From NCBI GenBank assembly GCA_037043015.1, contig CM073322.1, positions 8,629,601-8,693,600 on the forward strand: a DNA stretch of 64,000 nt. The letters are read 5' to 3'. The notes below the pieces were generated by a model. The model was not told the DNA's origin. It saw nothing but the letters and a program-made list of their open reading frames with translations, and ran no database searches. The position numbers and the translations under genes are program-made. Positions 10,004-57,640 of this stretch are shown here, piece by piece (the first letter of the stretch is position 1; every line of letters starts with the position of its first letter). The DNA comes from Bryum argenteum. Taxonomy: Eukaryota > Streptophyta > Bryopsida > Bryales > Bryaceae.

Positions 10004-10512
10004 ATGCAAACATTTTCGCCTAAATTTTTTAATGAATGCTCCCTATATGAAAAGTGTATGTGGTAAAATTTGCAAAGCCAATTCCAATTTTTGAGTCTTC
10101 TACGACAATTCTTGGTTTGCAAGCCGAACTGGGGCATCTTAAATTTAGTATTTTTTGAGATTTTTTTTGGAAATATGTTTCTGACCAAATCACTACTTAA
10201 GTTCCAAACGGCCCCAAGTCACAAAAAGTACCAATTTTACAAGGGCAGCCTCCTAAAGTGTCAAAAATAATCTCAACAATGCCCAAAAAAACTTCGTAGA
10301 CAAACTTTGGATGTTACGATCTCTCAAATGGTAAACATCCAATGGTCAATTTTTGAATCAGAAAGTGAAAATTGGCTTAGGTACAAGACCTTACGGTTAG
10401 AAGTTAAAAAAAAAGAATTAAAAATTTGTTTTGCACCCCTTGAAGTGCATAGAGGTAGAGAATTGAAGTTTGAGGTTTCAAGCTCCCAAAAACACCCAAG
10501 GATCTTTAGAGG
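10004..10512. mobile_element. Single-arm relative of the foldback TTAA element
   Basis: Homologous to one arm and loop of the 149-1,410 element, sharing TGTATGTGGTAAAATTTGC and CAAGGGCAGCCTCC. It ends GATCTTTAGAGG before TTAA (10,513-10,516). It preserves the empty version of the SINE target site at 10,321-10,350. The left end is approximate. Confidence 0.6.
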
Positions 10513-22050: not shown

Positions 22051-22388
22051 CGACCGCTAACGATCGTGAGACTACCACTACGATATTCCGATTGTCAACG
22101 ACATGTGCAGTTAACCGAAGGCAGTTCGTCGTTCCAGATGTTACACGCTCTTGAGCTTGAGAAGAACAAGTCTCTTCATCAGGTCAGATCCTTGAAGAGA
22201 CTGTCATCTACAAGTGTAGCAATTTTCATGTTGCCCTGCAGGATCAAAATAGGTTGAAGTCACATACCATCTGCACAGTTACACATTTTCATCTTTGCTA
22301 AACCCAGGCTACATTTCAATATGATCGCAAGCTCGGATGCTTCAATATAATTTTCCCACGACCGGTTTTGACAACTAATTACTGACTT

Positions 22389-22482
22389 GCTCAGCTCAGT
22401 TGAAGAAATTCAACCATTATAACCTGTTTGCTTCATGTGGTTTCCCATCAGAAGCGCGGGTATTTTATAATCATCGCTGAGC
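22389..22482 (-). ncRNA. Box C/D snoRNA, U15-like two-guide type, copy 1
   Basis: On the minus strand a perfect 7-bp terminal stem (GCTCAGC with GCTGAGC) encloses a C box-like GATGATT and a D box CTGA. An internal D' CTGA follows TACCCGCGCTT. The D' guide is complementary to AAGCGCGGGTA in 25S rRNA. The D guide (GGTTGAATTTCTTCA) is complementary to the neighbouring TGAAGAAATTCAACC. As I recall the plant LSU rRNA, the two targets lie side by side. By the fifth-nucleotide rule it would direct two nearby 2'-O-methylations. The name U15-like is inference from the target region. Confidence 0.8.
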
Positions 22483-22498
22483 TTGGATTCAACTAGAT

Positions 22499-22630
22499 GT
22501 CAGAGTCTCAGATATCCAAGGAAGGTTTGGAAGCTGCATTAGCTCTCAAGCCCGGCAGGACGAAAGCTTTAGGCGGCCACTGCGAATGTTTGAGAAACAA
22601 GCCTAGGGATTTATCATCACTGGCTCTGAC
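22499..22630 (-). ncRNA. U14: U14 small nucleolar RNA, copy 1
   Basis: A 132-nt box C/D RNA on the minus strand. Terminal stem GTCAGAG/CTCTGAC, C box GTGATGA, D box CTGA. It contains the U14 domain A core ACATTCGCAGT and the domain B core ACCTTCCTTGGAT. Both pair with 18S rRNA: domain B matches ATCCAAGGAAGG, and domain A matches the 5' domain near position 80-100. U14 is needed for early pre-rRNA cleavage and also guides 18S methylation. It has a plant-like internal hairpin (GGTTTGGAAGCT with AGCTCTCAAGCC). Confidence 0.93.
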
Positions 22631-22645
22631 GTAGTCTTGGAATGG

Positions 22646-22733
22646 GGGATCAGGTTTCTGGCTTGGCTCTTTCGAGCGAATTCGCACAGGTAGAATCAGT
22701 GTCGATCATTCGGGGAAAGTATCCTCATGTCCC
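22646..22733 (-). ncRNA. Box C/D snoRNA, unassigned family, copy 1
   Basis: Minus strand. Stem GGGA/TCCC, C box ATGAGGA (one change from consensus), internal D' CTGA and terminal D CTGA. It shares long blocks with 22,953-23,042 and 24,059-24,156, notably CTTTCCCC followed by ATGATCGAC before the D' box, and GAGCCAAGCCAGAAA before the D box. I could not match either guide to an rRNA segment from memory. Confidence 0.7.
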
Positions 22734-22771
22734 GAACCAAAAGAATACAAAACCCTAGATTATCTTTTCAA

Positions 22772-22881
22772 CCGGAAGGAGCTCAGAGTCGGCCATGGTA
22801 TTATGGTTCGATTCATGCCAAGCAGTTTCCTCACTAATATTCAGTAGAGGGAGCTGTGAATCCTCATCGCAAGTTCCGGAA
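22772..22881 (-). ncRNA. Candidate box C/D snoRNA, single copy
   Basis: Minus strand. A C box-like ATGAGGA (22,861-22,867), an internal CTGA, a C'-like GTGAGGA and a final CTGA (22,783-22,786) lie between outer arms CCGGAA and TTCCGG, which pair perfectly. The stem is separated from the boxes by a few unpaired bases, so the ends are less certain. Target unknown. It lies between firmer snoRNAs on the same strand. Confidence 0.5.
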
Positions 22882-22952
22882 GCGTGTACATAAAAGACTG
22901 CTCGGAGTCGGCTTCAGTATTAAGATTAACTTCGTCGCTACAGAATTATCTT

Positions 22953-23042
22953 CGGGATCAGATTTCTGGCTTGGCTCTTTCGAGCAAATTCGCACAGATG
23001 GAATCAGCGTCGATCATTTGGGGAAAGTATCCTCATGTCCCG
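22953..23042 (-). ncRNA. Box C/D snoRNA, unassigned family, copy 2
   Basis: Minus strand. Perfect stem CGGGA/TCCCG, C box ATGAGGA, D' CTGA after CCAAATGATCGACG, D box CTGA after CAAGCCAGAAAT. The boxes and both guide regions are kept while other positions differ from copy 1, as expected for a functional family. Confidence 0.8.
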
Positions 23043-23159
23043 GAAAACTGCCCTATGAAACAAACCGGGTGCACTGAATCTGGATAACGGGAATTCAATA
23101 TCCTGCAGCAGGTCGCAAAGCACTAAAAGTAATTGCAGACTTCTACTACATAGGACATC

Positions 23160-23245
23160 CAGTTTAACGAATCTCAGTGTATGTAGCAATGGAGATGATC
23201 ACAAGCTCGAGAGCTTCACTCTGCCTTTGTCATCTCGGTTCAGAC
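23160..23245 (-). ncRNA. Weak snoRNA candidate with a degraded partner near 22,275-22,365
   Basis: The two blocks share a core (GAAGC, CGAGCTTG, GATCAT, then TGTAGC-like sequence) on the minus strand. The 23.2-kb copy has a GATGACA box, an ACTGAGA D box and partial flanking pairing. The 22.3-kb copy keeps an AAACC/GGTTT stem but poor boxes. Possibly one functional and one decayed copy. Ends are approximate. Confidence 0.35.
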
Positions 23246-23261
23246 ATTGTAACATTGACTT

Positions 23262-23355
23262 GCTCAGCTCATCTGAAGAAATTCAACCATTATAACCTGT
23301 TTGCTTCATGTGGTTTCCCATCAGAAGCGCGGGTAGTTTCTAATCATCGCCGAGC
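23262..23355 (-). ncRNA. Box C/D snoRNA, U15-like two-guide type, copy 2
   Basis: Same two guide blocks as 22,389-22,482 and the same length (94 nt). The terminal stem is GCTCGGC/GCTGAGC with one G-U pair. The D' guide reads CTACCCGCGCTT, one base different from copy 1. The final D box reads ATGA instead of CTGA, which may weaken the second guide or indicate early decay. Confidence 0.7.
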
Positions 23356-23379
23356 AACACATTCTAACAAAAAATGAGT

Positions 23380-23511
23380 GCCAGAGTCTCAGATATCCAA
23401 GGAAGGTTTGGAAGCTGCATTAGCTCTCAAGCCCATCAGGGCGAAAGCTTTAGGCGGCCACTGCGAATGTTTGAGAAACAAGCCTAGAGATTTATCATCA
23501 CTGGCTCTGGC
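23380..23511 (-). ncRNA. U14: U14 small nucleolar RNA, copy 2
   Basis: Also 132 nt, with the same C box GTGATGA, D box CTGA and U14 domains A and B. Its terminal stem is GCCAGAG/CTCTGGC. Compared with copy 1, both partners of one pair changed together (U-A to C-G), so pairing is kept. Confidence 0.93.
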
Positions 23512-23561
23512 ATCTACAAAAACCTAACATGAACATCCCGACAGCTATGTAATAACAAACT

Positions 23562-23644
23562 AGCCCATCAGAAACGCAGGTTAGCGTCACTTGCTTACGC
23601 ATCGGAGGGAATCCGACTAAGGTCTGCAATTCATCATACGGACT
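23562..23644 (-). ncRNA. Box C/D snoRNA directed at 25S rRNA (AATCCGACT site)
   Basis: Minus strand. Stem AGTCC/GGGCT, perfect C box ATGATGA, D box CTGA, internal D'-like CCGA. The sequence before D' (AGTCGGATTCCCT) is complementary to GGGAATCCGACT, found in 25S rRNA as I recall it. That implies a 2'-O-methylation guide for an A in that stretch. The guide before the D box (CTAACCTGCGTTT) has no target I recognise. Confidence 0.75.
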
Positions 23645-23689
23645 TATAAAAAGAAAGCAATACCTGACCGAACATGGAAAACTTCGTTA

Positions 23690-23815
23690 AAATTCTCAGA
23701 TATCCAAGGAAGGTTTGGAAGCTGCATCAGCTCTCAAGCCCGGCAGGGCGAAAGCTTTAGGCGGCCACTGCGAATGTTTGAGAAACAAGCCTATAGATTT
23801 ATCATCACCGAACTT
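23690..23815 (-). ncRNA. U14: U14 small nucleolar RNA, copy 3
   Basis: 126 nt. The C box, D box and both U14 rRNA-pairing domains are intact. The terminal stem is a different sequence from copies 1 and 2 (AAGTTC/GAATTT, one G-U pair) but still pairs fully, again supporting selection on structure. Confidence 0.9.
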
Positions 23816-23825
23816 CGACAAGAAA

Positions 23826-23909
23826 AAGCTCAGTCACTGACCAGTTTATCAATCACAGTTTTCAGAAGCAGAACTGGCGTTATACTGGTGATTGGATTCA
23901 TCATAGCTT
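23826..23909 (-). ncRNA. Box C/D snoRNA directed at 25S rRNA (AAGCAGAACTGGCG site)
   Basis: Minus strand, 84 nt. The stem arms AAGCT and AGCTT pair as AAGC/GCTT around a perfect C box ATGATGA and D box CTGA. The sequence before D' CTGA is CGCCAGTTCTGCTT, complementary to AAGCAGAACTGGCG of LSU rRNA. Animal snoRNAs of the U51/U77/U80 group act near this site. Exact orthology is not claimed. Confidence 0.82.
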
Positions 23910-24058
23910 GATGAGATGTTAGGCAAATGATTGTTAATAAGCGACATGGAATGTCGCCCTAACTGCCCACTCGCCTAAGACTCTTGCATATCCCCTCATT
24001 CAATTACTGCGCACAACGCGACAGCATTGTACACACGGGATTGCGGACTCTTTGTATA

Positions 24059-24156
24059 GTGATTGGATCGGTTTTCTGGCTTGGCTCTTTCGAGCATAGT
24101 AGCACAGTTGGAATCAGCGTCGATCATTTGGGGAAAGTATCGTCATTTCCAACCAC
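24059..24156 (-). ncRNA. Box C/D snoRNA, unassigned family, copy 3
   Basis: Third copy of the CTTTCCCC...ATGATCGACG family, with a longer terminal stem (GTGGTTGGA against TCCAATCAC, G-U pairs allowed). The boxes have drifted: C is ATGACGA and D is CCGA. It is the first snoRNA after the promoter. Confidence 0.65.
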
Positions 24157-24320
24157 TACGAAAACACATACAACCTAAGAAATCATCGACTGGAAGGTAC
24201 AGATACCAAATCTCGATAAAGCGAAAATAATAACAGAAGAAAGACTGCTGTGACTACGACTAAGAAGATGGGGAGCAAAGTCTTTATGCAGCAACCGGCT
24301 CGGGAAGACGAAGGCTCCAG

Positions 24321-24392
24321 AAACCCTAACCCTAATTCGAGGGGACGAAGAACTTCTATCATTATTCATTTATTGTCGTTACATTATAAAGG
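24321..24392 (-). promoter_or_regulatory. Promoter of the snoRNA cluster: telo box and TATA-like motif
   Basis: A doubled telo box (AAACCCTAACCCTAA on the plus strand, 24,321-24,335) lies just upstream of the first snoRNA. A TATA-like TTTATAA (minus strand, 24,384-24,390) lies about 50 bases further out. Telo boxes are typical of plant snoRNA-cluster and ribosomal-protein promoters and link them to growth-dependent transcription. One start here would give a polycistronic precursor running to about 22,390 or beyond. Confidence 0.65.
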
Positions 24393-25487: not shown

Positions 25488-26869
25488 AACCCTAGATCCA
25501 AGATCACCAAATCGGATTTTTGCTTTTTTGAGCAGCCTATATGAAGGATTTCAAAGTAGTATTTTTGCCTAAGATTTTTATTGGGTTCTTCCTCTACTGC
25601 ATAGTATATACTATAAGATTTGCAAAGCCAAATCATCTTTTAGAATCTTCATCTTAAAATTTTAGGTTTCAAGCCTAAAATGAGCTTTTTAAATTTAAAC
25701 TTTTGTAACAAATAATTTTTTGAAATATGTTCATAACAAAGCACTACTCAAGTTCCAAAGTATCCCAAGTCAAAAAGTTTACCAATTGATAACAATCTTC
25801 AAGTTTCCTTTTGTAGCATTCAAACAATGTCTTCCGAGCAAGCCCATATCTATTTTGCACCAATTTTGAATGTTACGATCACACATAGAAATTTGATTAG
25901 ATTCAATAGTTGAAGTTTTTCATGGTAGTTGTGATAGTAGGTGGGTTTGAGATCCTACGGTTAATACTACAAAAAACACTAAGATTTGACCATAACTCAA
26001 TTTCAATAAGGTGGTAAAAGTTTGCAGTTTTGGTAGGAAGTCCAAAGAACTCTTGGAATTTTGCAAATGATAAACATCCAACCATCAATTTTTGGAGGAG
26101 GGACTAGAAATAGGCTTAATGATGAGATCGTGGGGTTAGTGTCCATGTATATTTTTAGGTATAAAAACATAATTGCAAATCTATTACTACAATCATCTCA
26201 ACAAGTGTTATATAACACTTGTATAAAATTCTCAATTCAAAATACAATCTTGCAAAAATAGATTATGCTAAAAACACATATTTTGTTGTGATGGGAATAT
26301 TCAAATTATCAATTCAATTACGGTTGAGCTTGAGTCGAGCTAAACTATATTTTCCAAAAAGCATTGAATATTCCTATCAGAACATAGTACGTGTTTAAGT
26401 CTTGAATAAAAAAACACTCATTGCACAAAATTGCATGCACTGTCTTCATGACATCTTTGATAATTTATGAAATTTGAACATAAACATCCAAACTTAACTT
26501 GGAGTCTATAAAAAAAGAAGTCTCAATAGAAAATGGATCTGTTGCTCCTCAAAGTTTCAATCTCTTATTCAAAATGTTGACTTTAGATATTGGAAATTGA
26601 TCAAGGGGTGAACTTCAAGATTCCTTTAGGAGTGAAATTTTGGAGGCCTTAAGGGGAAACTTTGAGGGATGTTTTGATTTTCTTGAGATTGAATCATTCT
26701 TTCATGATGACATTGTATTTGGGTAAAAAAGCTAGAATTAAAATCAACTTTTGCTTCATTTTGAAAACCTCTCCACATGTATCGATCACAACCTCAACAA
26801 GCTTACCTTTCACTATCATCTACTTCTTACCAAGATTTTACGCAGAGAATCCATAACATCAATTCTTAT
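25488..26869. other. Repeat-derived AT-rich DNA, no gene seen
   Basis: Starts with another foldback-related arm (TTTATTGGGTTC...GATTTGCAAAGCCAAAT). No coding content recognised up to the left edge of the P450 array. Confidence 0.55.
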
Positions 26870-27201
26870 GTTAGTATGTCATCCACCTTCAATCCTATTT
26901 TTTTCATTTTCCCATTTTTAGCAACCAAAGCAAGTGCGTCTCCTCAACCCCTCTCACATCTTTATCTATAAACTCTGTGAATGAATAAATGATTTTTGTG
27001 AATGAAATTGAAAAGGTAAATCCAAATGCTTGCATGTAGCTCAATCATAATGCACATCATGCATGACCATATTTGCCATTCTTTGTTCTCATTTCACGCC
27101 CTTGCCCACTCATGCCATCACTTCTCTAGAGTCATTTCTAAATCCAAACTTTATTCATAAAAAGAGCAAACACACAAATTTTTCACAATCGAGCCTACAC
27201 T

Positions 27202-29344
27202 CTATGCCACTCCATAAGTACACAAGGTGTTCAAACGAGGATACCCGTGCAACAATAATGTCTTGGCACGAGGTAGTGTGATGCCAAACTCCTCGCTCAT
27301 ATCCACATCCTCGGCCTCCTTGCCAGCGGGAAGATACCACTCAAAAGCATGCACAAGCACGGCAATGGTCCACTGCATAGACATGGTGCCCATATTGATG
27401 GCAGGGCACGCTCGCCGCCCCGATCCAAACGGAAGCCCATAGTCCTGCCCCTTCACATCCATGTCCGGGCGGTGCATGAACCTCTCCGGCTCAAATTGAA
27501 GCGGATTCTCTCACTCCTCTGGGTTGCGACCTATGGCGTACGCGTGCACCAGCAACCTTGTTCCCGCTGGGATCGAGTATCCCGCCAGCTCGCAATCTTC
27601 TCTTGACTCGTGCGGGATGAGCATTGGTGCCGGTGGGTGCAGACGGAACACTTCCTTCACCACCGCTTGGAGATACTTCAGCTTCGGTAAGTCTGCTTCT
27701 TCCACCATCCGACATTTTCAGACCACGCTGTTGAGCTCGTTGGTAAGGGTTTGCATGGCTCGCGGACTGCGCATCAGCTCTGCCATTGCCCATTCCACCG
27801 TCACCGATGAGGTATCCACTCCTGCCGCTATCATGCTCTGGACAGGTCCACAAATTCAACATTGTATCATGATCTATTCCACAAATTGAAAGCCAACCTC
27901 GTTTTGAGTTGTGCATCACTTGAAAAGAGAAGATTCCTGAGCGCCGTATATGTGTTCATGGACGGGAAGAGTAGAGAATGCGTATGATTTAGATGATGCT
28001 TCTTCAGAGGTGTATGGTGCTTACCATGGCGGTTGCTTTGATGGTTTCAACATCCAGCTTCAAAGAGTCTTGCAGGTGATCTTGTTCGTGCGTGGAGCGC
28101 TGGAGGACGTCCACCATGTCCTTGTCGGCCTCGGCAATCAGTCCATTCAGCCACTTCTTCTCATGCTCCTGCACGACTTTGTTGAGGAAAGTGTCAAGAC
28201 GGGCTTGCACTGATTTCATGCGCTTCTCGATGCCGCCGTGGAACGAAGTCTCCGAGCACGAACAAGCCTTTGAGTTGCTGCAGCTCGTCAATGACGTCTT
28301 TGAATTCACGCCCTTCAGGATCCGCTTCTTCGTCTGCTCCACCGATGGACCCGGTAAATCGATGTCCCAAACTCCCAATACCATGCAAAATACCTCATTG
28401 GCCATGTTCACGCAAAGCCTGATGTCCACCAGCTTTCCTTCTTGTGTGATGTCTCGCGCTATGAAGCTGCCATTCATCATGATTCACATAATGCACACAA
28501 ATTGAAGAGCCATGGTCCAAGTAGTCCAGATTTTGTTTGTTCATCATAGAAAAGGAAGCTCTGTCCAGATAGCAGGTTTCTCCTATCGCTTTTACTTAAA
28601 ATGATGCTGCTCCAGAGGAGAGAACCTGTACTCTCTCTTCTCACAGGCCTATACTTTCTATTGTAAATTGATTATATTCATTGTGACAATAGGCATTTTG
28701 TTGACATAAAATTCAGCACCTAAGCATTTGTTGCATTTCTTCTATATGCGCATCCCAGGTTGTGTAGCTTCGAGCCTCTTTGATGTTAAGAGCTCCAAAG
28801 TTGCAATTTTTTTGAAGTTGGCGTTAGAGAGGTGAGTATTGAGCAAAGGTAATTCCTTGTTTTTTGATTTCACATTTAAGACAATGGTATAAGATGAAGT
28901 TTGTGTAAAGCAAAAAAACGAGAAAGATTTGAAATGAAGGGCTCATGTGCACTAGCCTCTGTAGTTGTAAGAGAAGTAAAGTGCCGAGATTTTGTGTTTG
29001 GGGCGGGATGCCCAAATCTTATCTTGAGTAAGCAAGACTTGCTTTGCCATAGCTGGTGATGAAACCACAATTGTTGGAACGGAGCCCAACCACAACATGT
29101 AAATGTCGCCAAGCTCATTGGCCCAATTTTGCATGGTGATGTGTTGTTGCTTGCCCAACAATGGCAAGTGGCCAAGAATGGGCCATGCGCATGGAGGTGT
29201 TGGTGGCATGTTCCACCATTGTGTGTGGGATTTGTAAAGAATGATCACCACACTTAGAAGAGTTGCATAGAATGCTAATTTTACAAACATGTCGAACGAC
29301 ACATAAAAAGAGATACTCTGTTGTAGGTTGCAATGATCTTCCAT
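27202..29344 (-). pseudogene. Cytochrome P450 copy A (four exons, broken)
   Basis: Exons correspond to 28,957-29,344, 28,720-28,855, 28,025-28,466 and 27,202-27,837. Exon 1 is open with a membrane anchor, proline hinge and start ATG, but its donor is GC instead of GT. Exon 2 has an in-frame TAA at the C-helix Trp position and then a one-base insertion. Exon 3 is frameshifted and lacks a stretch present in copy E. Exon 4 has two stops, replacing the Gly of the VVGK motif and the Trp of EEWENP, and has lost one Leu codon before the haem motif FGSGRRACPA. It is closest in layout to copy E. The broken frames rule out a normal enzyme. Confidence 0.9.
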
Positions 29345-30144
29345 AGTGTTAAGCTGGCAAGCTGCTTGTATCACAACACGAAAGGGTGTCTTAGAAACAT
29401 TCATTCACTTGCTTGCTTGGTTGACATGCATAATTGAAAACACTTGTTTAGGAGATTTGGGATTAAGTAGAAGTTCAAAAAGTTGGATGATTGTATTAAC
29501 AATATGTCGAACCCATCATGAATATTCCATGACTTTATTGTCAGAGGAAAATCAAAGTTGTATCACTTGTATGAGATTGACTTCAACTACTTTGCAAGAC
29601 AAATGTGAAACCTTGGACTTACTTGGAAAAATGCAAGCAAAACTCAATCACAGAGATCTCTGCCATGAGTACAAAATTAGTGTTAGTGCTTCAAAGGAGC
29701 ACCATTTAGATTCGTTGGTTAAAATTGTATCATTCGTCATACTTCAACATAAACCTTCACAATCAAACCTGTTAAGTACAAAAATCGTGTAAACTTGAAA
29801 ATTTCGAAAAACACAACGAAGCGAGAGCCTAAACTCAACAAGAACAGGCGTGAGCCCAACCACAAGTGCGGACAATCAAATGCAATGTGAAGGAACTTCT
29901 GCTCAAACATGATGTTCACAAGAGCAAGAGAGGCAAAACTTGCAAAAAATAAAGTAATCTTCTTGCTGGCTCGAAGTTGCACCACCTGCAATGTTCTTGA
30001 ACCGAGACTCAAAACAGCAAGACTTGTAGTCACCTCTTCTCACGCATGCTTGTCAAGTGCTTCAAGCAAGATGTAGAGCGAGCAATCCTTCACAACAAAC
30101 TTCAGAGCAAGCAGAGCAAGTGAAGAGAACTTGTGCAATTAAAC

Positions 30145-30151
30145 ATTTATA
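30145..30151 (-). promoter_or_regulatory. Relic TATA box of P450 copy A
   Basis: Minus-strand TATAAAT lies at the position equivalent to the TATA motifs above copies C (near 53,775) and E (60,751-60,757). Confidence 0.35.
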
Positions 30152-31812
30152 CAAGTCTTCGTGTTTGGAAGGACACGCCTTTGGACGGTGCAGGTGATCC
30201 ATCAGTGGAACACACAATGTAGATCTTTGGCTGAGATTGCATCTTATCCGACCTGATGGGCACTGTATCGTCATCTCTACCTTATAAAACTTGTTCTTGC
30301 AATAGTTTGCACCTACCTGATTACAGATTCTTTCTTATACGCATGGCACTAAACTGTAACTTCCATACAAGTGTTCTTCCACGCTAAAAGAAGATGCTTG
30401 GATCTTACACACGAATGGTCCTACCGTTGAATTGATTCCATTCACGTTACAAGAAAGTGCTTGAATCTCATCTACAAATGATTATGGCTTAATAAGTTTT
30501 TGGGGGACCTTCATTACATAAAAGATCAATTAGAATACTCAAAAGGGAGGTAGATTTTGGAGAATATCATGTGCATGGCAAACCATATATTGATCATCAC
30601 TTAACCTTACCATTTACGTCCATTTCTTATCATTTTCAGAATAAGAGGACTCACAAAAATTTCAAGTGGAAAAGTCTGGTGGTAAGGCAAAAATAAGGTG
30701 AAAAACCATGTGCAAGATCAACCTATCGATTCACCACATTGTGACGATCGATATGTCACAAAAAAGCGAAGCCTATGAGAACAGTCATCTCCATCTACAC
30801 TACAAGGATTAAGCACTACGAACTACGGCAAAATCGTAGCTAAATACACTGGGCGTGGCTGACTTTGGTCTCCTGAAATCGTCGTTCTCGCTACAGGCCT
30901 ACGTAGTTATTTAAGAAGCTACGTTGGGGTGTAGCATTCGCTACACGCCACACACCTGCTGGGTACTGGTCGTTCCCATGCATTTCTCGTTCCCAACCGC
31001 AAACGAAGCACGCGGGAGGGAGGTGGGGCCCACTACCCCATCACGTACTCGAGTTAGTTAACCTTTATCTGGGATGATAAATAGTTAAAGTCGTGAGGTA
31101 AATAGTAAACAGGTACGATAATTGTCATCCGGGTGAAATTATTTGTCTGGTTTGGTTAATATTAAAGCTTTACTAATTACAGCTTTGTGAAGCATTTGTA
31201 TAAGTGAACAGAATTGGTGAAAGGAACATCCTGAAATAGGATAATACCTACTATTAAAAGAATGTAATTGGAATGCGGAAATGTCGATGATGTCATGCTG
31301 CGTTACATTTTCGAGTAACGTAAGGCTGTTATTTCTACACGTGGATACGGGTGATAGATCGATCTCACAGAAAAATAACGAAATTAAAAGCCAGCCAATT
31401 GGAGGATGGACATGTGCATTTTGTCGACCTTCGCCATACACTATAAGAGGCAGCTGCATTCCTGAATATGATACCCATTTGTACATCCATCCGCAAATCA
31501 AAAGCTCTGTACTATCCCATAGAAAACAAACGCAATGTAATGTAGATAGTAATTGGAAAACACATGCCCAAAAGTACTACCTCGGTAGTAGGGTGTTAAA
31601 ACATCTGAGTTCAGCAATGTCACAAGGCCCGCATACCTCTGCAGTAAACCATCGCTAATACAGTATGCGTTGCAAGAGTCCTGGAATGAAATCAGAATTA
31701 TCACGTAGAAATCCTGTGTAAATGGTCTCTTTTGTATTCACAACATGTACATACTTCACATAGCACGTGTGGGAAGCAACAGAGAAGTTGAATTCGTCTA
31801 CCAAATGTCGGC

Positions 31813-37829: not shown

Positions 37830-40800
37830 ATGCCTCGCCGACACAAAGTTGTTGGGGTTTCGCAATTCACTCCTCCCGCCCCAACACCTACACCCTCAAT
37901 AAATGAGGACATTCCATCATCGCCGCCTAGAACGACATACTCTAGAAAAAGGAGGAGACTGGACGAAACATCATTGGAAGATGCACCCGATATACCTGAG
38001 TTCAAAGTTTATTGCCCGTGCTGTAAATGTGCAGAATTCAATAAGCCAAGTATGAGATATATCTCTATTGTTCAGAACCATATTAATCTATACAAGATGT
38101 CCGATAAGTATCAGGTGATTCATTCAGAACTCCTTTGTTCATTTTTTGAATATAATGATTTTGGTAGTCATAATATAGAAATATCATATTCAAATTAAAA
38201 TATATATATTACATATGTAATGCCGTTGTACTCTGGGCTCTTGGTATCACTATATGTAGATGTGAACTTCAAAGCTACCATATTTCTGTGTTCAAAGCTA
38301 TCATATACCTTTGGTTTAAAAGTTTGGTGAGTTTCAGTGGTAGAGTACTTTAGTCTAGCTTATCTCTTCTTATACTGTGAATTACCATCCTTTGTTAGGA
38401 AAGAACACAAGGAAAAATTCAAGTATCATATGATTCATTTTTAACTATTTTGTTCATTTCCAGGATATAATGATTCTGGTAGTTATAATGTAGCAATTTT
38501 ACATTAAAAAAAAAAAAAAAAGTTTTAATGAAGGGGTACTGTGGGCTCTTGCTATTTCATGGATGTTGATCAAAACTTAACTTTATCATGGTTCTTTTCC
38601 CAATTCCTTACGCAATATAAAATACTGTTATATGTTATTTAGGATTCATTGTGAATTCTTTAATTCTGATGAAATACATTATTATGATTTCCTCTATCGC
38701 AGAGACTGTATGAGGCTCAAATGTTAAGTGTGAACCCTCCAAATTTGGATCATACTTTCGACGGCTCACAAGAAGTGGAAGAAAGTGAAGAAATCTTTGA
38801 GGAGCATGATATATATGGGGATGAGAAATTTGTGTTAGAAGAGTACATGGATCTACTTCGGCATTATGATACAGATGGTCTTCAAGGGAATGACCATTTT
38901 CCACAAAACATGGAGGCTAAACTGTCGCTCCTTGAAGAAGAAGCTTCCACCATGATTTTTGATGGTGCAACATCTAGTCGTTTATCAATTATTTTCTTGT
39001 TCCTAACCATCCAGGCTGATAAACAAATTTCGAATGTTGCCATGGATGCCATTTTCAGAGCAATTTCAGAGAAAGTCATTCCTCTAAATCTGAACTCCAG
39101 AATGCCTACAACAAGAGCGGAAGCACGCAAGATAGTAAGTGAAGTGGGTTTTGACTATATCGTCTATCATGCATGTCCTTGTGACGAAACCCTTTACTAT
39201 GGCCCTATCAAGAAGGACTGGATATTTTGCCCCAACTGTAAACTTTCACGGTTCTGTGAAACAACACAAAGCAAAACCGTTCCACGCAAGGTATGTTTTT
39301 CATAACCTTATTACTGATAATTCATAATATTAAAATTCTCGCTATCAATTCTGAGTAGTTTGTATTTCACACATATTTGGAGACTACATAAGTACACGAC
39401 ATATTTCAACATAGATAACATTATACTGCCACTAAATGAAGTTGTTCAGATCATTACATTGTATCTCTTTAATATCTTGTTTACTAGGATCAGGTATTCA
39501 CATGCAGTATATGTTAATAATTCTATATGGTGTATTCTTTTTCTAGTCACATCGTACCCAAATATTAGTGAATTCCCTAAATAAAATCAATTCATAAAAT
39601 CAGCAAAGTGGAACTAAGACGACGATGAGTGTATTCTGGAAGAATAAAATAAGAAAAGCTACCACTTTCATATTTCCGTCGGTTAGGTACTGGAAAAAGT
39701 CAGCTCAATCACAGAGAACGTAAAAATTTCAAATTAAAAGTAAAGGCCACTAAAATTCAAAAAAAAAATAAATTACTGTTACATAGATGAAGTTATTAGA
39801 ATGCTGGAGTGTTATCCCGAGTGTTATTTACAATTGTTGTTAATATACAGAGAATGTGGTATTTCCCTATAATTCCACGACTTCTGGCTTATTACCGGAG
39901 CCCGAGTTTGTCTCCTCGCATGATATGGCATCGTGACAATAGAAGTCTTGATGAAGTTATGCGAATACCAGCTGATAGTCCTGCTTGGAAGGCAATGGAG
40001 GATAAATACGACAAAATGAAGGATGCGCGTAGTGTTATGCTACAGATTAGTACTGACAGTATTAACCCAGCTGGGTTGAATTCGACAAGCCATTCCCTAT
40101 GGCCTATTACATGCACTTTGCTGAATTTGAACCCTAAGCTTGGAATGCATAAGGGACACATTCTATTGTCCACTATCGTACCAGGTAGAACTCCGAACTT
40201 TGAACTTCTATCTACTATCATTCATTTGGATAATTTCTTTTTTTCCTTCATGATATTTTTTAGTATCAATTTTAGGTAAATCAATTGTGACTACACCCAT
40301 AGTGTACCGAGCGGAACAGCAACTCAATTATGAAACTTCACTAGTTGCATTGAAAACCTTCTAAGCATACAGTAAATACGGTTACTTATAATAAGCACAA
40401 TTTTAAAGAATGGAGCAAAATTTTTGGTTCATAGAAAACTCATTGACAGTGAAATTCGTGCAGGGAAAAGAAAAGTTAAAAATTTTAACACATACATGGA
40501 GCCTTTGATTGACGAGCTTTTGAGGTTGTGGGTGGATGGAGTAGACGCATACGACGCGAACACTAACGAAAACTTTAGACTTCATGCAATGATGTTATGG
40601 TCATTGCATGACTTCCCGGGGTATGGAGTATTTTCGTCTTTACAAACTCAAGGGCTGAAAGGTTGCCCCCCTTGTGGCCCAAATGTGATAGAGGCAAAAC
40701 ACTGTACCTACTTGAGAAAGGTAGTGTATACAGGGCATAGGAAATACCTACCTATGAAGCACAAGTACCGTGCAAATAGAAACCGAAATAAATTTGATGG

Positions 40801-43463
40801 TACTTCCTATAATAAAGTTCCTAAGCCAGAGAGAACAAACGGGAAATTTTGGCTCAAACAATGGAGGAAGGTGCAGAGAAACAAAGTTCTCCTGAAAGAC
40901 TCAGGAATGAAGGAAAAGTCGATCTTATTCCGTCTTCCTTACTACAAGGTTAGTATTTTAGAGTTTTCTACCTTTTCTGTTCTTGTTTGACATTTTCAAT
41001 GCCTAAATTACTGGTACAAAGCTTTTGCATTTAAACTTGTATAAGAAATATAAATACGATCTGCATATGTCTCTATAAATTGACTGATAGAAGTAGTAGT
41101 ACCATTGAAGTATATAACAAATGGACAACTAAATGTCAACTTTATTTGAATGCCACCATAGTAATTCGGTGACTTTTAGAGTAATTGTATTAAAAAGTGT
41201 TGATTAGATAGTTATTAGAATACAAAATTGATTAAAGATGAGGAAATAAATTAAGGATATCGTCTTATTGGGCGTAGAGAAAGCAATATTCTCCGAGTAG
41301 TAGAAGAAACAATCTCATAGTACTCGTTGGGACATGTAAAAATTGAGAGCTATCACAAGGTGTCTCTAAATCAAGGCAATAAACATTTATCATATCTTAC
41401 TAAGTCTAAAACGTGTTAATGAAAGCGAGGGGCGTTTACAATATTCCACATAAATATAGATCTACTTTATCATTAGGACATGCACATTGTTCTGACAAGG
41501 TCCCAAATTGTATATTTTTGTCTATCAGCACCTACTCGTCCCTCATTTGCTAGACGTGATGCATACAAAGAAGAACGTTTCAGCTTCATTACTGAAAACA
41601 TTCTCAAATTGCAAGGGGACGAAGTCAGATTCACTTGCATTACGCAAATCTTTACAACAATTCAATGTACTACAACGATTTCACCCAGTGGAGGACGGAG
41701 TGGATGATAAGGGCCAGCCAAGGTGGTCATATACAACAGCTGATTGGATTTGGAAGGCTCAAGAGTACGATAATATCATCCACATGATATCATCAACTCG
41801 CACTCCTTTCGGCTATGGATCAAGTTTCCGCCACAAGTTCAACAATCGAAAGCTAGTAGGTTTCAAAACCCATGATTATCATAACTTGCTTCATGATTTA
41901 CTACCTATTGCAGTTCGAGGTACTCTTACGCCCGGTATTCGAAGTATTGTATACCGGTTATCAGCTCTCTTCCGTTGGGTGTGCTCAAAAGAAATTAAGG
42001 TGTCAGATTGTCCAAGGATGAAGAGAGAAGCTGCAGAGATATTGTGTGAAATGGAAATACACCTACCCATTTCAGTTTTTGACATTCAAGTCCACAATAT
42101 CTTGCATATAGTAGAAGAGGTTGAACTTGCAGGTCCAGTTTCTATAAGATGGATGTATCACATTGAGCGCTACCTTAAAGTATTAAAAGACTTTGTCAGA
42201 CAAAGAGCACGACCGGAAGGGTCGATCGCAGAAGGATACATCTGTGCAGAATCAATGTTCCATGTGAATGAATATACTCAAAGGTTGGATAGGTTTGCAA
42301 CCCGATTACAGAAACCAATAGAGGAGGATGTACGATCAATATGGATAGTATTGCCAAAGTTATCATCTCCTAAACCACTAGATCCAATTTTCAGGGAACA
42401 GGCACATAGGTTTTTATTACTTAATGCTCCATGCATGGAACCTTGGAGGGAGAGATATGAATTAGAGTGTGAGGACACCGTACATAAACCTTCGTTCAAG
42501 GATTGGGTCCAAGGTACAGTTCGGGAAGACATATCTAATAATAAGGAAGTGTCCCAAATGGTTTTAGATATTATACTTGGCCCAGGAGCGAGGGGCCATT
42601 TCTACAATATGTGTTGGGCGTACGGAAGTCACTATCGCATAATGGCAAGGGATTTGACCAAAAAAACAACTTTTGATAGTGGGGTTTCAGTTCTATACGA
42701 AATTGGAGGGGACAAAATAGAGTTCTATGGCTACATAGACACAATTGTGAAGTTGGATTTTGATAGCTTTGAGTCAGTGTTGTTCCGGTGCCAATTTTGG
42801 AATTCTATCATTAAGCAGCATGGCTCGAATGCCACTGTATTGGAGGATGAATGTGGTTTCGAACACGTTAAAGCAGGGGAATTTTTAAGGACATCGGGGG
42901 TTGACGACGATCCGTTCATTTTTCCTAAGGACGTCAGTCAGCTTTTTTATGTGGATGATCCTATGAATCAAGGCTGGAAGTTAGCTATTAAGGTGACACC
43001 GCGTTCAAATCTCGTAGTATACAAAAGGCCAGAGTCATCGGGTACTGCATCGGAAATCCAAACTGTTAACTCTTTACCTTCTCAAGGCAATTTACCAGGA
43101 GGGGTCCCTGCCGAAGGAGGTGCGGAATTGGACCTTCCGAATGCCACAGTATCGGAGTTGCTGACTGTTGAGGCCGATGATGATGCCGGCGAAGGAGTGG
43201 GCATCGACGAAGAAGATGAGGAAAGGAACACCATATCTGTGGACATGCTTGCGGAGGAATATGACTCCGATCAAGAAGAAACACCGCTTGCCTTTTTAGA
43301 TGACCCAGAGGACTTCGAGCAATTTGCAAGCGGAGATGAGTTACTAGACATCGAAAGTGATGGCGAAATGGAGAATGAAACACCTCGGCATCGTCTGGGG
43401 ACTGCAGCTTCCGTGTCGACTCAGGTACAACATCGGAAACCCAAAAAAATTACCTCATGCTGA
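37830..43463 (+). CDS. TNP2-like CACTA transposase (five exons, about 1,208 aa)
   Basis: Exons are 37,830-38,114, 38,703-39,290, 39,851-40,184, 40,464-40,948 and 41,529-43,463. All junctions are GT-AG and keep frame. Exon 1 has a C-P-C-C zinc-like start (VYCPCCKCAEF). Exon 2 carries HACPCDETLYYGPI and FCPNCKLSRF. Exons 3-4 carry the TNP2 core (PRMIWHRDNR, EPLIDELLRLWVDGVDAYDA, WSLHDFPGYG, GCPPCGPN, GHRKYLP). Exon 5 opens with LLDVMHTKKNVSASLL, then a DUF4218 region (HNLLHDLLPIAVRG to EGYICAESMFH) and a DUF4216 region (VLYEIGGDKIEFYGYI to FYVDDPMNQGW), ending in an acidic tail. No stop or frameshift was found. It would cut and join the CACTA ends. An upstream 5' exon is likely because an acceptor (TTTTGTAG) precedes the ATG. 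Confidence 0.9.
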
Positions 43464-45881: not shown

Positions 45882-47470
45882 GATCCACACATCCACACAG
45901 ACGGGATGAAAACATCAAACATCATTTTATTTCAAGAGTTCAGAGAACCACAACAAAATTTAGTGATCACAATTTCACATTTCTATGACCCCGGAAAAGA
46001 AAATCCTCTCATTTGTTTTCTATGTATGAAGTGTGGTCCCAATACGTCGTAGAAATGCTACCGAGACGTTATTATTCAAATTTGTGTTTTGAAACAGAAA
46101 CCTACACCCAAGGCTCCCTCTCATAAAAAACAATGTGGTACACTGCCTTCTACACCTCCTCCATGATCCCGGAGAATGATCGAGATCCCCGAGACTTTAA
46201 CACACCACTCTGCCATTGGTAGAGAAAACTTGTCCTTACTTCTTTCAATGTCCCTCTCATAACTACTTTTTGCCTTCTCTCCATTTGTGCCGATTGAATA
46301 ATACCGCTTGCTCTTGATTCATTAACCTTCACCGACAATCTCCTCAATGTTACATTTTCGAATCTCATTTTCATTTATTTTGAGAATTATTTGAAATAAG
46401 ATCCAAGCAATATGTGGATGCAATGAGGAGATTTTCTTATTCAGCCGAGATTAGATGAAAGGCATATTGAAATATATGCATGATAAAATATTTCTACATC
46501 CTTGAGAATATTCCAATCAGAGCTCAACTCTTTCTTTCTATGCATTGAAGCTTCCTTGTGAGGATCTTCACTTAACCATACCACTCATGTCCATGTTAAC
46601 ATTTTCATAATCCTGAGAACTCAAGAACTCTGGAGTCTGTCCTTCAGGCCAATCCACCTCTGCATGCAAAGTATTCAAGAAGCTTTCCCTCAACCTACGA
46701 TGGCTGATCAGCGACAACGATGTATGGCGAGCAAAATGAGGGGTGGATTCAGCACATTTCAATGATATATGACAAAAAACTGCCGTGCTTATGAGACCAT
46801 AACCTCAATGTGATCCACACACTCAGGAAAACCATAGGAGTTTCATTTCAAAAGTTCATAGAACCACAAAAAAAAATTAGTTTTTCTAATTTTTCTATTA
46901 CGTATCCCAAAAGAAAAACGATGTTTCATGTTGCTTGTGTACAGAGGTTCCAATATGTCATTCAAATGATACTGAACACTAAGTATCCAAAATTTTGATC
47001 TGATGTGTTAAAAAGGGAAAGCTACACCCAAGGCTCCCAGTTGTCCCAGTTGTCAAGCCTGTGCACACGAACACTCACTGTTGTTCAAACAGTTGCCCAC
47101 CACAGCAATCTTTGGGCCCGATCCTTGACATCGAGATCCTCACATGAGAGCTCAAGCACACCACACCCATCTTGACCCAGAAAAGCTCCCCAACCATATT
47201 CATTGTCCATGCAACATGATGAGCATGGTGGCTACCTTTCTTCGTGCAGCCTGATCAGCCTGATGGCTACCTTTCTCCTTCCCTTGCGTCGTGCCATGAG
47301 GGCCGATCTGGAGTGGTGGGCTCTAGATCCTTGACCTCCTCTATGACATGATTTCACTGCTCATTGAAAAAACCTAAAACATGATGTGAATGCCATGAGC
47401 ATGGTTCCTTAAGGTCTATATTCATGCTGAGTGTAGATAGGCAATATCCTGTCAAAGTATTTGTTGAAAA
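45882..47470. repeat. P450 unit A upstream block (right of the CACTA insertion)
   Basis: It continues the unit A upstream DNA interrupted by CACTA. It matches the blocks at about 49,080-50,065, 54,050-55,625 and 61,400-62,967. Shared markers are GTGATCACAATTTCACATTT, CAATCCACCTCTGCATGC and CACACCCATCTTGACCCAGA. No intact gene recognised. Confidence 0.75.
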
Positions 47471-47652
47471 TATGTGATCCCTGAGCATCAACCGATAGTA
47501 TGAACCTCTCTTTTCTTTGCCCTGCAACTCTTCTGAATGAGTCCACTTGCCTTACTGCTTTCCCATCCATGCCTACTCATTTTTTCTAGTCATTTTTTAC
47601 AGTCAAAAAGCGATTCACAATCGAGTAAACATACAAGCGATTCACAATCTAC

Positions 47653-48585
47653 GCGTGGCCACAAACACGGAGTGCGTGGACACCAGGACGTGCGTGGACA
47701 CCAGGGACGTACGTGGAGAGCAACGTCTTTGCGTGATGCCAAACTCCTCGCTCATGTCCGCCCGGATTTGAGCGGATGCAGCTCATAGTCTTGTCCCTTC
47801 ACATGCATGTCCCGGTGTCCCGGTGGCGCATGAACCTCTTCGGATTGAATTGCAGCGGATTCTCCCACTAGTGAGAGAATCCACTGCAATTTGATCCGGA
47901 TAGGTACGCCCCTTGCGACCGATGGTGTACGCGTGCACCAGCAACCGGTGTCCCGCGGGAATTGAGTCTCCTATCTGCTCGCTATTAATCGCGTGTTGGA
48001 CTCGTGCGGGAGAGGCGAAACACCTCCTTTACCACCGCTTGCACATACTTCAGCTTTGCTATGTCGGCTTCTTTCACCATCCGACATTCTCCAACTACAC
48101 TCGTTTGATGGGGTTTCTTAAGGGTGGTGACGAGCTAATGTGCAATACAAGATTGATGGAAACTTAGGGTACCCGTTTGGTAGGGCCGGGTTTGCATCAC
48201 TCTCGGATTGGTCACCGAAGATGTATCCACTCCTGCCACTATCTATCATGCTCTAGACAGGTCAAAAATATAACAGCATTCGTGCCGTGCTGTATTCCAC
48301 AAACTGAAAGCCAATATCGTTCAGAATTGTGCACTTTTGAAAAAAACTTGATTTCTCGGAGCTATATGTGCTCACGTATGGAAAGAGTACACATTGTGGT
48401 GATTCTGGCTTACAATGGCGGTTGCTTTGTGGTGATTCTGGCTTACAATGGCGGTTGCTTTGTTGCTTTGATGGTTTCTTGGCGATAAATCGATGTCGCG
48501 AAATACCTCATTTGTCACTTTGATGTTCACTCGAAGTCTGATGTCCACCAGCTTTCCTTCTTGTGCAATGTCTTGCATTATGGAA
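47653..48585 (-). pseudogene. Cytochrome P450 copy B (exons 3-4 only, decayed)
   Basis: An exon 4 relic lies at about 47,653-48,252 and an exon 3 relic at 48,414-48,585. Exon 3 is reduced from 460 to about 170 bp by an internal deletion, and its 3' border is duplicated (33-bp direct repeat at 48,398-48,463). Exon 4 carries a snap-back palindrome at about 47,841-47,898 and has lost the haem region. Exons 1 and 2 are missing. Confidence 0.85.
48398..48463. repeat. 33-bp direct duplication at an exon-intron border
   Basis: The block starting GTGGTGATTCTGGCTTACAA occurs twice back to back, duplicating the relic intron 3 donor of P450 copy B. Confidence 0.85.
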
Positions 48586-49079
48586 CTGCCTTTGAACTTG
48601 AATCACATGGTGTAATACAAGGCAAGCAGCTGTATCCTATCCGAGTAGCACAGGTACTGTACAGAATTGAAGAGCCACATTTCTATGACCCGAGAAAAGA
48701 AAGGAAGTCCCCCATACATACTACTGAATCTTATATACAAATGGTTATGGCTAAATACGTTCATGAGACGACCTTCATTTCATGGAAGATCAATTAAAAT
48801 ACTGAAAGGAGAGATAGATTTCAAAGAATATCATGTACATAGCAAACCATATTTTGATCTTCACTTAACCTTACTATTCACGTCCATGTCTTATCATTTT
48901 CAAAATTAGAGTACTCACAAAAATGTCAAGTAGAAAGGGCAAGTAGTAAGGCATAAATGAGGTCATAGGTCACGACCAAAATGGACATCAACCAATCGAT
49001 TCACCACTTTGTGATGATATATCACAAAAATGCCAACCCTACGAGAATAATCACCTCCATTTTGATTCCAACACAAGGA

Positions 49080-50065
49080 AAGAGCACATCATTCCATTTC
49101 AAGAGTTCATAGAACGACAACAATTTTCAATGATCACAATTTCACATTTCTATACCCCTGCAAAGAAAATTCTTTCCTTTGCCGCATTGTCTGTCATAAT
49201 CTGAGAACTCACAAACTCTTCAGTCTGTCGATCACCTTCAGGCCAATCCACCGCTGCATGCAAAGTATTCAAGAGAAGCTTTCCCTCAACCAGCGATGAC
49301 TTATTAGCGACAACGATGTATGGCGAGCAAAATGAGCGATGGATTCAGAACATTTCATTGATAAATCACAAATTGCCGAGCTCATGTGAACACCAACCTC
49401 TATCTTGTGAGAGCAATAACCTCTATCTTGATCCACACATACAGGAATACCATAGGTGTTTCAGTTTATGAGTTCATAAAACCAGAACAAGAAATCGAAT
49501 TTTCCAAATCTTCCATTCTATAACCCAAAGAAAAGCAATTCTCCATGTTGTGTGTGAACAGAGTCCCAATATGTCATCGAAATATAATAAACACTATCTA
49601 AAATTTCATTCTCATGTGTTAGGAAGAGAAAGCTACACCCAACTGAAGGCTCCCAGTCGTCAAAAAGCCAGTGAGTGCACAAAACATTGTCGTTCAAACA
49701 GTTGCCCACTACAGCAATCTTTCGGCCCGTTACCTATCGAGATCCGCACATGAGAGGTCAAGCACACCACACCCATCTTGACCCAGAAAAGCTCCCACCA
49801 TATTCTTTGTCCATGCAACATGATCACCATGGTGGCTACCTCTCCATGCAGCGTGATCAGCGTGATCGATACCTTTCTCCTTCCCTGGTGTCGTGCCGTG
49901 ATGGCCAGTCTGGAATGGTGGGCACTTGATCCTTGATCTCCTCGATGATATGATTTCACTGATCATTATATGAAAAATCTCAAACATGATGTGAATGCCA
50001 TGAGCATGGTTACCTATGGTCTACATTCATGCTGAGTGTAGATAGGCAATATCCTGTTAAGTATC
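49080..50065. repeat. P450 unit B upstream block
   Basis: A shortened version of the array's upstream block. It carries the same markers as the other units, including CACACCCATCTTGACCCAGA at about 49,765 and the TAGATAGGCAATATCCTGT end at about 50,038-50,056. Confidence 0.7.
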
Positions 50066-50249
50066 TATTGAGCATCGACCGATAGTACGCAACTCTCTTC
50101 TTTCTTTGCATTGCAACTCTTCTGATTGAGATCACATGCCTTACTACTTTCCCATCCATGCCTTACCATTTTTAATAGTCAAAAGATTTCATTCATGATC
50201 AGTAAACAAACAAGCGATTCACAATCTACGCAGGGCCACAAACACAGAG

Positions 50250-50637
50250 TGCGTGGACACGAGGACGTGCGTAAAGCAGAGCGCCTTTCCGTGATGCGAA
50301 CTCCTCGCTCATGCCCGGCCGGATTTATGCGGATGCAGCTCATAGTCTTGTCCCTTCACATGCATGTCTGGGCGGCGCATGAACGCATGAACCTCTCCGG
50401 ATCGAATTGCAGCGGATTCTCCCACTACTGAGAGAATCCGCTCCGCTGCAACTTGATCCGGATTGGTACGCCTCTGTCTAGCAACCGATGGTGTACGCGT
50501 GCACCAGCGACCGGGGTCCCGCAGGAATCGCGTCTCCTACCTCCTCGATTTTAATCGCGTGTTAGACTCTTGCGGGAGCAGGCGAAACACCTCCTCTCCT
50601 ACCGCTTGCACCTCCTTCAGCTTGCTAAGTCGGTATA
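50250..50637 (-). pseudogene. P450 exon 4 relic (unit C, left part)
   Basis: The 3' part of exon 4, with the same snap-back palindrome as copies B and D (about 50,397-50,462). It ends abruptly at about 50,637, where an inverted segment begins. Stops and indels throughout. Confidence 0.8.
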
Positions 50638-51590
50638 ATTTCATAGTGTACATGGTCAGTGTAAAGTGTTGGCTTGTGAGAGGAGACTCTACATATTCTC
50701 TTATGTTGAATAGAAATGGAACATTCATTTGAGTAAAACTGATGGGAGCAAAGTTTGTGAACTCTTGTTCTGCTCAAAATAAATGTCTTCATCTCTACAT
50801 CTGTAAAGTGTATTCAGTACGATCGAAACAGAACTTCCTGTTTGAGTGATGTCCGAACTATATCTGGACTACTCGAACCATGGCTAGTCAGTTCTGAGAA
50901 GTGTCTTCGCTACTGGGATAGGATACATCTGCTTGTCTAGTATTACACCATGTGATTCATTCTCAATGGCAGCTCCATAATGCAAGACATTGCACAACAA
51001 GGAAAGCTGGTGGACATCAGACTTCGAGTGAACATCTAAGTGACAATGAGGAGTTTCGCATGGTAATGGGTAATCGATTTACGAGGTCCATCGATGGAGC
51101 AAAGGAAGAAGCGGATGCGGAAGCGCGTGGAGTTAAGGACGTGACTATCGAGTCATAGCAGCTGAAAGGCTTGTTCATGTTGGGGATTACCTGCCATGGC
51201 TGCGCCTTATCGACATCGGCAGCATGGAGAAGCGCATGAAATCAGTGCAATCGCGTCTCGACACATTCTTGAACAAAATCGTGGAGGACCATGAGGCGAA
51301 GTGGCAGATAGGACCCATTGCGTAGGCCGGTAAGAACATGGTGGACGTCCTCTTGGGCTCCATGCTCGAACAGCTGGTTCAAGTTCAAACCATGAAATCA
51401 ACCGCCATGGTAAGCCAAATTCATTGTGTACTCCTTCCATACGTGAACACATACAGCTCCTAGAAATCAATTCCTTTCCAAAGTGCGCAATTCTAAATGA
51501 TGTTGGCTTTCAGTTTGTGGAATACAGCACGGACCAATGCTGTTGCATTCTTAGCCTGTCCAGAGCAAGAAAGTGACAAGAGTAGATACT
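50638..51590 (+). pseudogene. Inverted P450 segment with exon 3 on the plus strand
   Basis: Reads as the reverse complement of the 56,360-57,260 region. From left to right it has upstream sequence, exon 3 (50,973-51,409, GTAAG donor), intron 3 and the first bases of exon 4. Exon 3 has in-frame stops soon after RLRVNI and later. It keeps recognisable stretches such as HEAKW- and NMVDVLL-like codons. It is the only P450 sequence in the array facing the plus strand. Confidence 0.85.
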
Positions 51591-51624
51591 AAATTATGCT
51601 TCTTCAGTGGTTCGTAGTGCTTAC

Positions 51625-52981
51625 CATGGCGGTTGCTTGGATGGTTTCAACATCCAGCTTCAAAGAGTCTTGCAGGTGCTCTTGCTCGTCCATGGAGCGC
51701 AGGAGGACGTCCACCATGTCCTTATCAGCCTCGGCAATCAGTCCACTCTGCCGCTTCTCCTCATGCTCTTGCACAACTTTGTTCAGGAAAGTGTCGAGAC
51801 GGGCTTGAACTAATTTCATGCGCTTCTCGATGCCGATGCCGCCGATGTCGAAAGGGCGCAGCCATGGCACGAAGTCTCCGAGCATGAACAAGCCTTTGAG
51901 TTGCTGGCTTGCTGCAGCTTGTCAATGATGTCTTTGAATTCACGTCCTTCCGCATCCGCTTCTTCGTCTGCTCCACCGATGGACCTGGTAAATCGATGTC
52001 CACGACCATGCGAAATACCTCATTGGCCACTTTGATGTTCACTCGAAGCCTGATGTCCATCAGCTTTCCTTCTTGTGCGATGTCTTGGACTATGGAGCTG
52101 CCATTCAACACGAATCACATACTGATTACTAGACAAGCAGCTGGTTCCTATCCCAGTAGCAAACATACTGCACACAAATTCAAGAGACATGGTCCAGAAA
52201 GTCCAGATTTTGTTTGTTCATCATAGAAACAGGAAGCTCTGTCCAGATAGCAGGTTTCTCATATCGGTATGCTGATGCTCCACAGAAGAGAACATGTACA
52301 CTCTCTTCTCACCTGTACACTTTCTAGTGTAAATTGATGATATTCAGTGTGACATCAGGCATTTTGTTGACAAAAGGATATCATATATTCAGTACCTTAG
52401 CATTTGTTGCATTTCTTCTATGCGCATGGGTTGTGTGGCTTCGAGCCCCTGTGATGTTAAGAGCTCCAAAGTTGCAATTTTCCGAAGTTGGCGCCAGAGA
52501 GGTGAGTATTGAGCAAAGGTAATTCCTTGCGTTTTGATTTTCACATTCCACACAATGGTATAAGATGCAGAAGATTATGGAAATCATAAAAATGAGAAAG
52601 GTTTGAAATGATAGGCTCATGTGTAGTAAACCTCACCTCTATAGTTGTAAAAGAAGTTAATTGCTGAGATTTTGCCCAAATCTTATCTTGAGTAAGCAAG
52701 ACTTGCTTTGCCATAGCTTGTGATGAAACTACAATTGTTGAAACAGAGCCCAACCACAAGCATGTAAATGTTGCCAAAGTCATTGGCCCAATTTTGCATG
52801 GTGATGTGTGGTTTCTTGCCCAACAATGGCAAGTGGCCTAGAATGGGCCATGCACGTGGTGGTGTTAGTGGCATGTTCCACTGTTGTGTATGCAATTTGA
52901 GCACACTGATCACCACACTCACACCCAGAAGAGTTGCATATAAGAAGAGATACTCTCTTGTAGGTTGCAATGATCTTCCAT
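51625..52981 (-). pseudogene. Cytochrome P450 copy C (exons 1-3, exon 4 lost)
   Basis: Exon 1 (52,637-52,981) keeps the start ATG but has a deletion in the membrane-anchor region giving an early stop, and a second frameshift near YMLWLG. Exon 2 (52,396-52,525) is open and keeps the C-helix WRQLRK motif. Exon 3 (51,625-52,097) is frameshifted. Exon 4 is absent: the next DNA is the inverted segment ending at about 51,590. Confidence 0.9.
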
Positions 52982-54049
52982 AGTGTTGAGCTACTTGTAT
53001 CACAACAGGAAAGGCAGTGTTAGAAACATTAATTTCTTTGCTTGGTAAGTAATTCTGACATGCATTCATGACCCAAAACTCTTGTTTAGGTGATTTGGGC
53101 ATTTGGCATCAAGTAGAAGTTCTAAAAGTTGGATGATTGTACTAACATTGCATCAAAGCGATCATGAATATTCCATCACTTTATTGGTGGAGGAAAATCA
53201 AAGCTGTATGAGATTACCTCCAACTACTTTGCAAAACATAAGTGAAACATGTGACTAATTTGTAAAAACGCAAGAAGAATTCAATTACAAATCTGCCATG
53301 AGTAAAAGACACTGTAAGTGCTTCGAAGGAACACCATTTAGATTCATTGGCTAGAATTCTATCATTCCTCATACTTCGATGGAAACCTTTAGAAGCAAAT
53401 CTGTTAACTATTGAAACCCTGTAAATTAATGTGAAAATTTCGAAAAGCCCAACGAAGCAAGCCTCAACTCAACAAGAACAGACGTGTGCTCAACCACAAA
53501 TGCGGACAATCAATGCATTGTGAAGAAACTTCTCTTCTGAAAACAATAATGTACAGAAGAGAAAGAGAAGCAGAACTTGCCACTCTCAAAAAAATAAAGT
53601 AATCCTCTTTGCTCGCTCTAAGTTGCACCAACTGCGATGTTCCTAAACCGTAACTCAATTCTCCTCTCCTCACGCATGCTCGTCAAGTGCTTGAAGCAAG
53701 AATTAGAGCGAGCAATCGTTCAGAGCAATCTTGACAAGAAGCAGAGCAAGTGAGGAGAACCTCTGCATTTAAGCATATATACAAGTTAAAAGTTATAGAG
53801 AGGACACGCCATCGGTCGCTGGAAGTTATCCATCACTAGAACACACGATGTCGAGATGTCCATGTCTTATCAATTTCAAGAATCACAGAACTCACCAAAC
53901 TGTCTAGACAATGGAAAGTTAAGTGGTAAGGCAAAACTAAGGTGAAAATTAAGGATCGTAAGATCTACTGATTGATTTACCACATTCTGATCATATATCA
54001 CAAAAATGCCAAGCAGATGAGAACACAGTCACCTCCATCTTGATCCACA

Positions 54050-55625
54050 CAGGGAAAGAAAATTTTATACCATTTCAATAGTTTAGGGAACCACAACAAA
54101 ATTGAGTGATCACAATTTCACATTTCTATGACTCCAAAAAAGAAAATCCCTTCCTTTGTACAGTATGTATGAACAAAGGTTCCAATACATCCTTGAAATG
54201 CTACGGAGACATTATTATATAAATTCTTGATAATCTGTGTCTTGTGTCTTGAAATAGAAAGCTACACCGAGGCAATATGGTACACTATCTTCATCCATAG
54301 AGTTGCCCTCTACATCAACCCTCCTCCGTGATTCTGGCGACTGATTGAGATCTCTACTTGATAAGAGCTAGCACACCACTCTGGCATTGATGGAAATAAC
54401 TTTGTTAGCATGTCCTTACTTCTTTTTTCAATGTCCTTGTGATTGCTGATTTACTCGTGCTCTCGCATCGTGCCGATTCATAAGTACTCGTTGCTTTGCC
54501 GATTGGTAAGTACTAGTTGCTCTTGATTTGTTAACCTTCACCAACAATCTCCTCAATGTTACATTTCTGAATCTCATTTCATTTTGTTTTGAGAATTATT
54601 TGAAATAACATCCAAGCAGTATGTGGATGCAATGAGCAAATTTTCTTGTTCAGCCGAGATTAGATGAGAGATACATTGAAATATATGCATGGTAATGTTT
54701 CTACATCCTTGCGAATAGTCCAATTAGAGGTCACCTCAATCTTTCTATGCATTGAAGCTTCCTTGTGGAAGATCTTCACTCATCCATACCATTCACGTCC
54801 ATATCTTAACAATCCGAGAACTCACAAATTGAGTTGTCGATCACCTTCAGGCCAATGATTCCACCTCGGCATGCAACGTATCCAAGACAAACTTTCCCTC
54901 AGCCTACCTTCATTGTCAGAGACAATTATGTATGGCAAGCAAAATGAGCGATGGATTCAGCACATTTCAATGATATATCAAAAAAAACTGTTGTGCTTAT
55001 GAGAACATAACCTCAATGAAACCCACAAACTCAGGAATACCATAGGAGTTTCATTTTAAAAGTTCATAGAACCACAACAAAAGTCAGTTTTCCCAATTTT
55101 TTCAATACGTATCCCAAAAGGAAAACGAATTTTCATGTTGCATATATGTACAGAGGTCCAATATGTCATCAAAGTGATACTGAACACTACGCAAAATTTT
55201 GATCTGATCTGTCAAAAAGGGAAAGCTACACGGCTACACCCAAGGCTCCCAGTCACCAAAAAGCGAGTGCACAAAACATTGTAAACAGTTGCCCACTACA
55301 GGAATCTTTCGGCCCGATCCTTGCTATAGAGATCCTCACATGAGAGCTCAAGCACACCACACCCATCTTGACCCAGAAAAGCTCCCCCAGCATATTCCTT
55401 GTCCATGCAACAAGATCACCATGATGGCTCCCTTTCACCCTTCCTAGCGTCGTGCGGTGAGGGCCAGTCTGGAATGGTGAGCACTCGATCCTTGATCTCC
55501 TCGATGGTATGATCCCATTGCTCTTTATCTAAAAATCACAAACATGATCGATGTAAATGCCATGAGCATGGTTCCGTATGGTCTATATTCATGCTGAGTA
55601 TAGATGGGCAATATCCTCTTCAATA
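54050..55625. repeat. P450 unit C upstream block
   Basis: Same order of markers as the blocks at 45,882-47,470 and 61,400-62,967. It contains an empty version of the CACTA target at about 54,031 just outside its left edge. Confidence 0.75.
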
Positions 55626-55797
55626 TCTATTGAAAATATGTGATACCTGAGCATAGACCGATAGTACGTAGCTCTCTTCGTTCTTAGCACTGCAACTCTT
55701 CTGAATGAGATCACTACTTTCCCATCCATTCCTTATCATTTTTTATAATCAAAAAGACTTCATTCATAATCAAGCAAACATACAAGTGATTAGCAAT

Positions 55798-56937: not shown

Positions 56938-57339
56938 CTGCCATTGAACATGAATCACATGGTGTAATACAAGGCAAGCAGCTGTATCCTATCCCAGTAG
57001 CACATTTTTCAAATAGAAGAGCCATTTTTCAAGTAGTCAAGATACAGTTCAGATATCAATCAAACAGGAAGCTTTGTTTTGATACTGAATACACTTTCTA
57101 GATGATTGTAGACTGAGATGAAGACATTGAGTTACAGCAGAAAAAGAACATCCTTTGCTCCTCTCAGTTTTACTCAAATTAAGGCTCCATTCTCATTTAA
57201 GAAAAGAGAATATGTACAGTCTCCTCTCACAAGCCAACACTTTACACTGATAATGTACAATATGAGATTGGGCATTTGCTGACAATACAATAGTCACATG
57301 CATTACCTTAGGAGCTATTGCATTTCAATTCAACTAAAA

Positions 57340-57640
57340 TCAACTGGTTGCACTGAACACACTGAGATTACTCTTTCCAAAATAATCATGTTTGAAGAGT
57401 ATACATTCAAACTAGTTTGTTCCATTCCCTTTGGTTCATCTTCCTCAAAAGTGGCAAATCAGTCTGAATCAGTTTGTGTATCAATTTTGTGTGACAACTA
57501 TTGAGATATTTGGAAGGGGGGACAACTGCTCCGGCTCTCGCTTGTTATTGCAGTTTTCACCCTTTTCCTGAATTGGATCACTATTTCATTAGGCTCAGTA
57601 TAAATAGATTTCTGAAAAAACAGACCCCTTGAGTCATCTT
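57340..57640. other. Spacer between P450 copies D and E
   Basis: About 300 bases without homology to the P450 unit that I can see and without a credible gene. Confidence 0.5.

Follow-up and report, generated by a model that had tools for sequence, protein, structure and literature searches.

The snoRNA cluster and its U14 copies

The locus described here, in a 64-kb window (the whole stretch of Bryum argenteum contig CM073322.1 that was analysed), is an ordinary kind of plant small nucleolar RNA (snoRNA) gene cluster, holding in about 1.8 kb a dozen genes for small ribosome-building RNAs. The window is recognisable as plant DNA from its matches to plant Rfam families, from the telo-box and from domains of a CACTA-type transposon. 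All 12 genes lie on the minus strand and are separated by 11 spacers of 1 to 222 nt, the arrangement of several genes with short spacers by which plant polycistronic clusters are recognised, and we regard them as such a cluster with a presumed common precursor. The first-pass annotation had reported a compact plant cluster with three U14 genes, which we confirm, and local duplications within it, which are supported as well. Its box C/D RNAs are indeed clustered on one strand, but the cluster does not appear to be purely of that type, one member probably being an H/ACA RNA of the snoR135 type, and the description of a three-copy family as unassigned was not borne out.

The U14 copies are located on the minus strand at 23692-23813 (copy a, 81.6 bits, with a 7-bp stem), 23385-23506 (copy b, 80.2 bits) and 22504-22625 (copy c, 81.0 bits), and all three pass the gathering threshold of 64 bits of the U14/SNORD14 covariance model, the check that had been proposed for them. 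Boxes C and D are intact and identical in the three copies, as are the stretches CAUUCGCAGU and CCUUCCUUGGAU, the U14 domains A and B, respectively. We think it very improbable that the cluster is instead a silent or degenerating copy of a working cluster located in another part of the genome.

U14 is accompanied by an RNA that resembles snR190/SNORD12, also present in three copies interspersed with other snoRNAs. Its D' guide is predicted to choose the third G of 25S GCGGGG, one mark of the snR190/SNORD12 family, and its last antisense element is predicted to pair with 25S adjoining H73. With the SNORD12 model, the three copies (23.3, 14.8 and 14.4 bits) did not reach the gathering score of 43.

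Other members of the cluster

Besides U14, the genes of the minus strand include one at 24063-24152 and the snoR135-type H/ACA snoRNA at 23914-24047 (43.6 bits, cut-off 45, E 1.4e-6), for which the region 23905-24050 gives a two-hairpin fold (z -4.84), with an ACA near the 3' end and a hinge in which no exact ANANNA was seen by eye. The member at 23823-23912 (43.3 bits, cut-off 45) has perfect C and D boxes and a 4-bp stem. U36a is found as copy b (23265-23352, 72.1 bits) and copy c (22392-22479, 72.8 bits), and further members lie at 22953-23042 (70.3 bits), 22780-22877 (50.2 bits, cut-off 60, E 1.8e-9) and 22645-22734 (60.3 bits). Segment X1 (23175-23264, minus strand), which matched no Rfam family, has a diverged partner of only 66% identity in segment X2 (22301-22391, minus strand).

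An unnamed C/D snoRNA at 23564-23643 (minus strand) is delimited by its boxes and a 6-bp stem and carries a candidate D' guide AGUCGGAUUCCC and a candidate D guide ACCUGCGUU. In 25S, the former would presumably select the first A downstream of GGGG in GGGGAAUCCGACUG, and the latter the G of AACGCAGGU, which corresponds to Gm2620. Both GGGGAATCCGACTG and AACGCAGGTGTCCTAAG can be found as strings in published papers. Against the Rfam snoR60 consensus this RNA gave a weak sub-threshold match (E 0.095), the common part being UCGGAUUCC of the D' guide.

Upstream region and surrounding window

The telo-box announced ahead of the cluster was recovered as a double element at 24321-24335, not assigned to a strand (AAACCCTAACCCTAA on the plus strand, TTAGGGTTAGGGTTT on the transcribed one), which is the sole match in the window and was found in 0 of 100 shuffles. 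About 50 nt upstream of it, a weak TATA-like motif, TTTATAATG, was read off the sequence at 24382-24390 (minus strand). No Site II element (TGGGCY) occurs within 1 kb upstream of the cluster, the nearest upstream lying at 25471, more than 1 kb off; two TGGGCT within the cluster (23430 and 23562) are both inside RNA genes. The pair of telo-box and Site II, usual in Arabidopsis according to PMC4660826, is therefore incomplete here. Since that paper also reports a rice cluster in which one member of the pair, the telo-box, is missing, Site II is not strictly required.

Elsewhere in the window, 26865-30796 and 45929-63000 are large duplicated blocks (65-82% identity). A domain search over 10 of the 23 listed frames identified a clear cytochrome P450 at 58004-58660 and a cytochrome P450 match below cut-off in the frame 28004-28483, and the blocks are perhaps a tandem P450 array. 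On the plus strand, the frames at 38688-43463 carry the domains Transposase_21 and DUF4218, and DUF4216 was matched slightly below its cut-off; we take them to be a CACTA-type DNA transposon. An inverted pair of 365 bp with 96% identity (145-509 and 1050-1414) is perhaps a small mobile element; relatives of weaker similarity are located around 10009-10341 and 25509-25787.

U14 and its neighbours in plants and fungi

A maize cluster holds U14 together with U49 and snoR1-3. Like the present one, the plant polycistronic clusters of Leader (1994, 1997; cited in PMC7464842) group U14 genes and bring C/D and H/ACA RNAs into one region with a presumed common precursor.

In fungi, an snR190-family RNA and U14 likewise share one unit, in the S. 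cerevisiae snR190-U14 dicistron, S. pombe snR107-U14 and Neurospora CD16-CD37, and in both yeasts the snR190-type RNA is upstream of U14. The predicted 25S site of the fungal RNAs is the same as here. In yeast, snR190 does not methylate its own site; for Arabidopsis SnoR28, PMC8053127 gives 25S G2396. Unlike the fungal units, the present cluster has three copies of each RNA, among other snoRNAs; it also differs from S. pombe, where snR107 is intronic, and from Neurospora, where each gene also has its own putative promoter.

Several points speak for the alternative, which we consider unlikely, that the RNA does not belong with snR190, or against a meaningful pairing with U14. The SNORD12 scores are far under the cut-off in all three copies, and the last antisense element, predicted to pair in the neighbourhood of H73, appears to have another target than yeast box B, the second element of snR190, which is directed to domain I. 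The chicken snR190 homologue has another host gene than U14, and human SNORD12 sits in ZFAS1. A chance meeting of the two RNAs has, by rough inference from about 7 other families here and about 100 plant C/D families, a probability of several per cent. U14 in this cluster has beside it an RNA that resembles another RNA of ribosome assembly, one that neighbours U14 in fungi as well.
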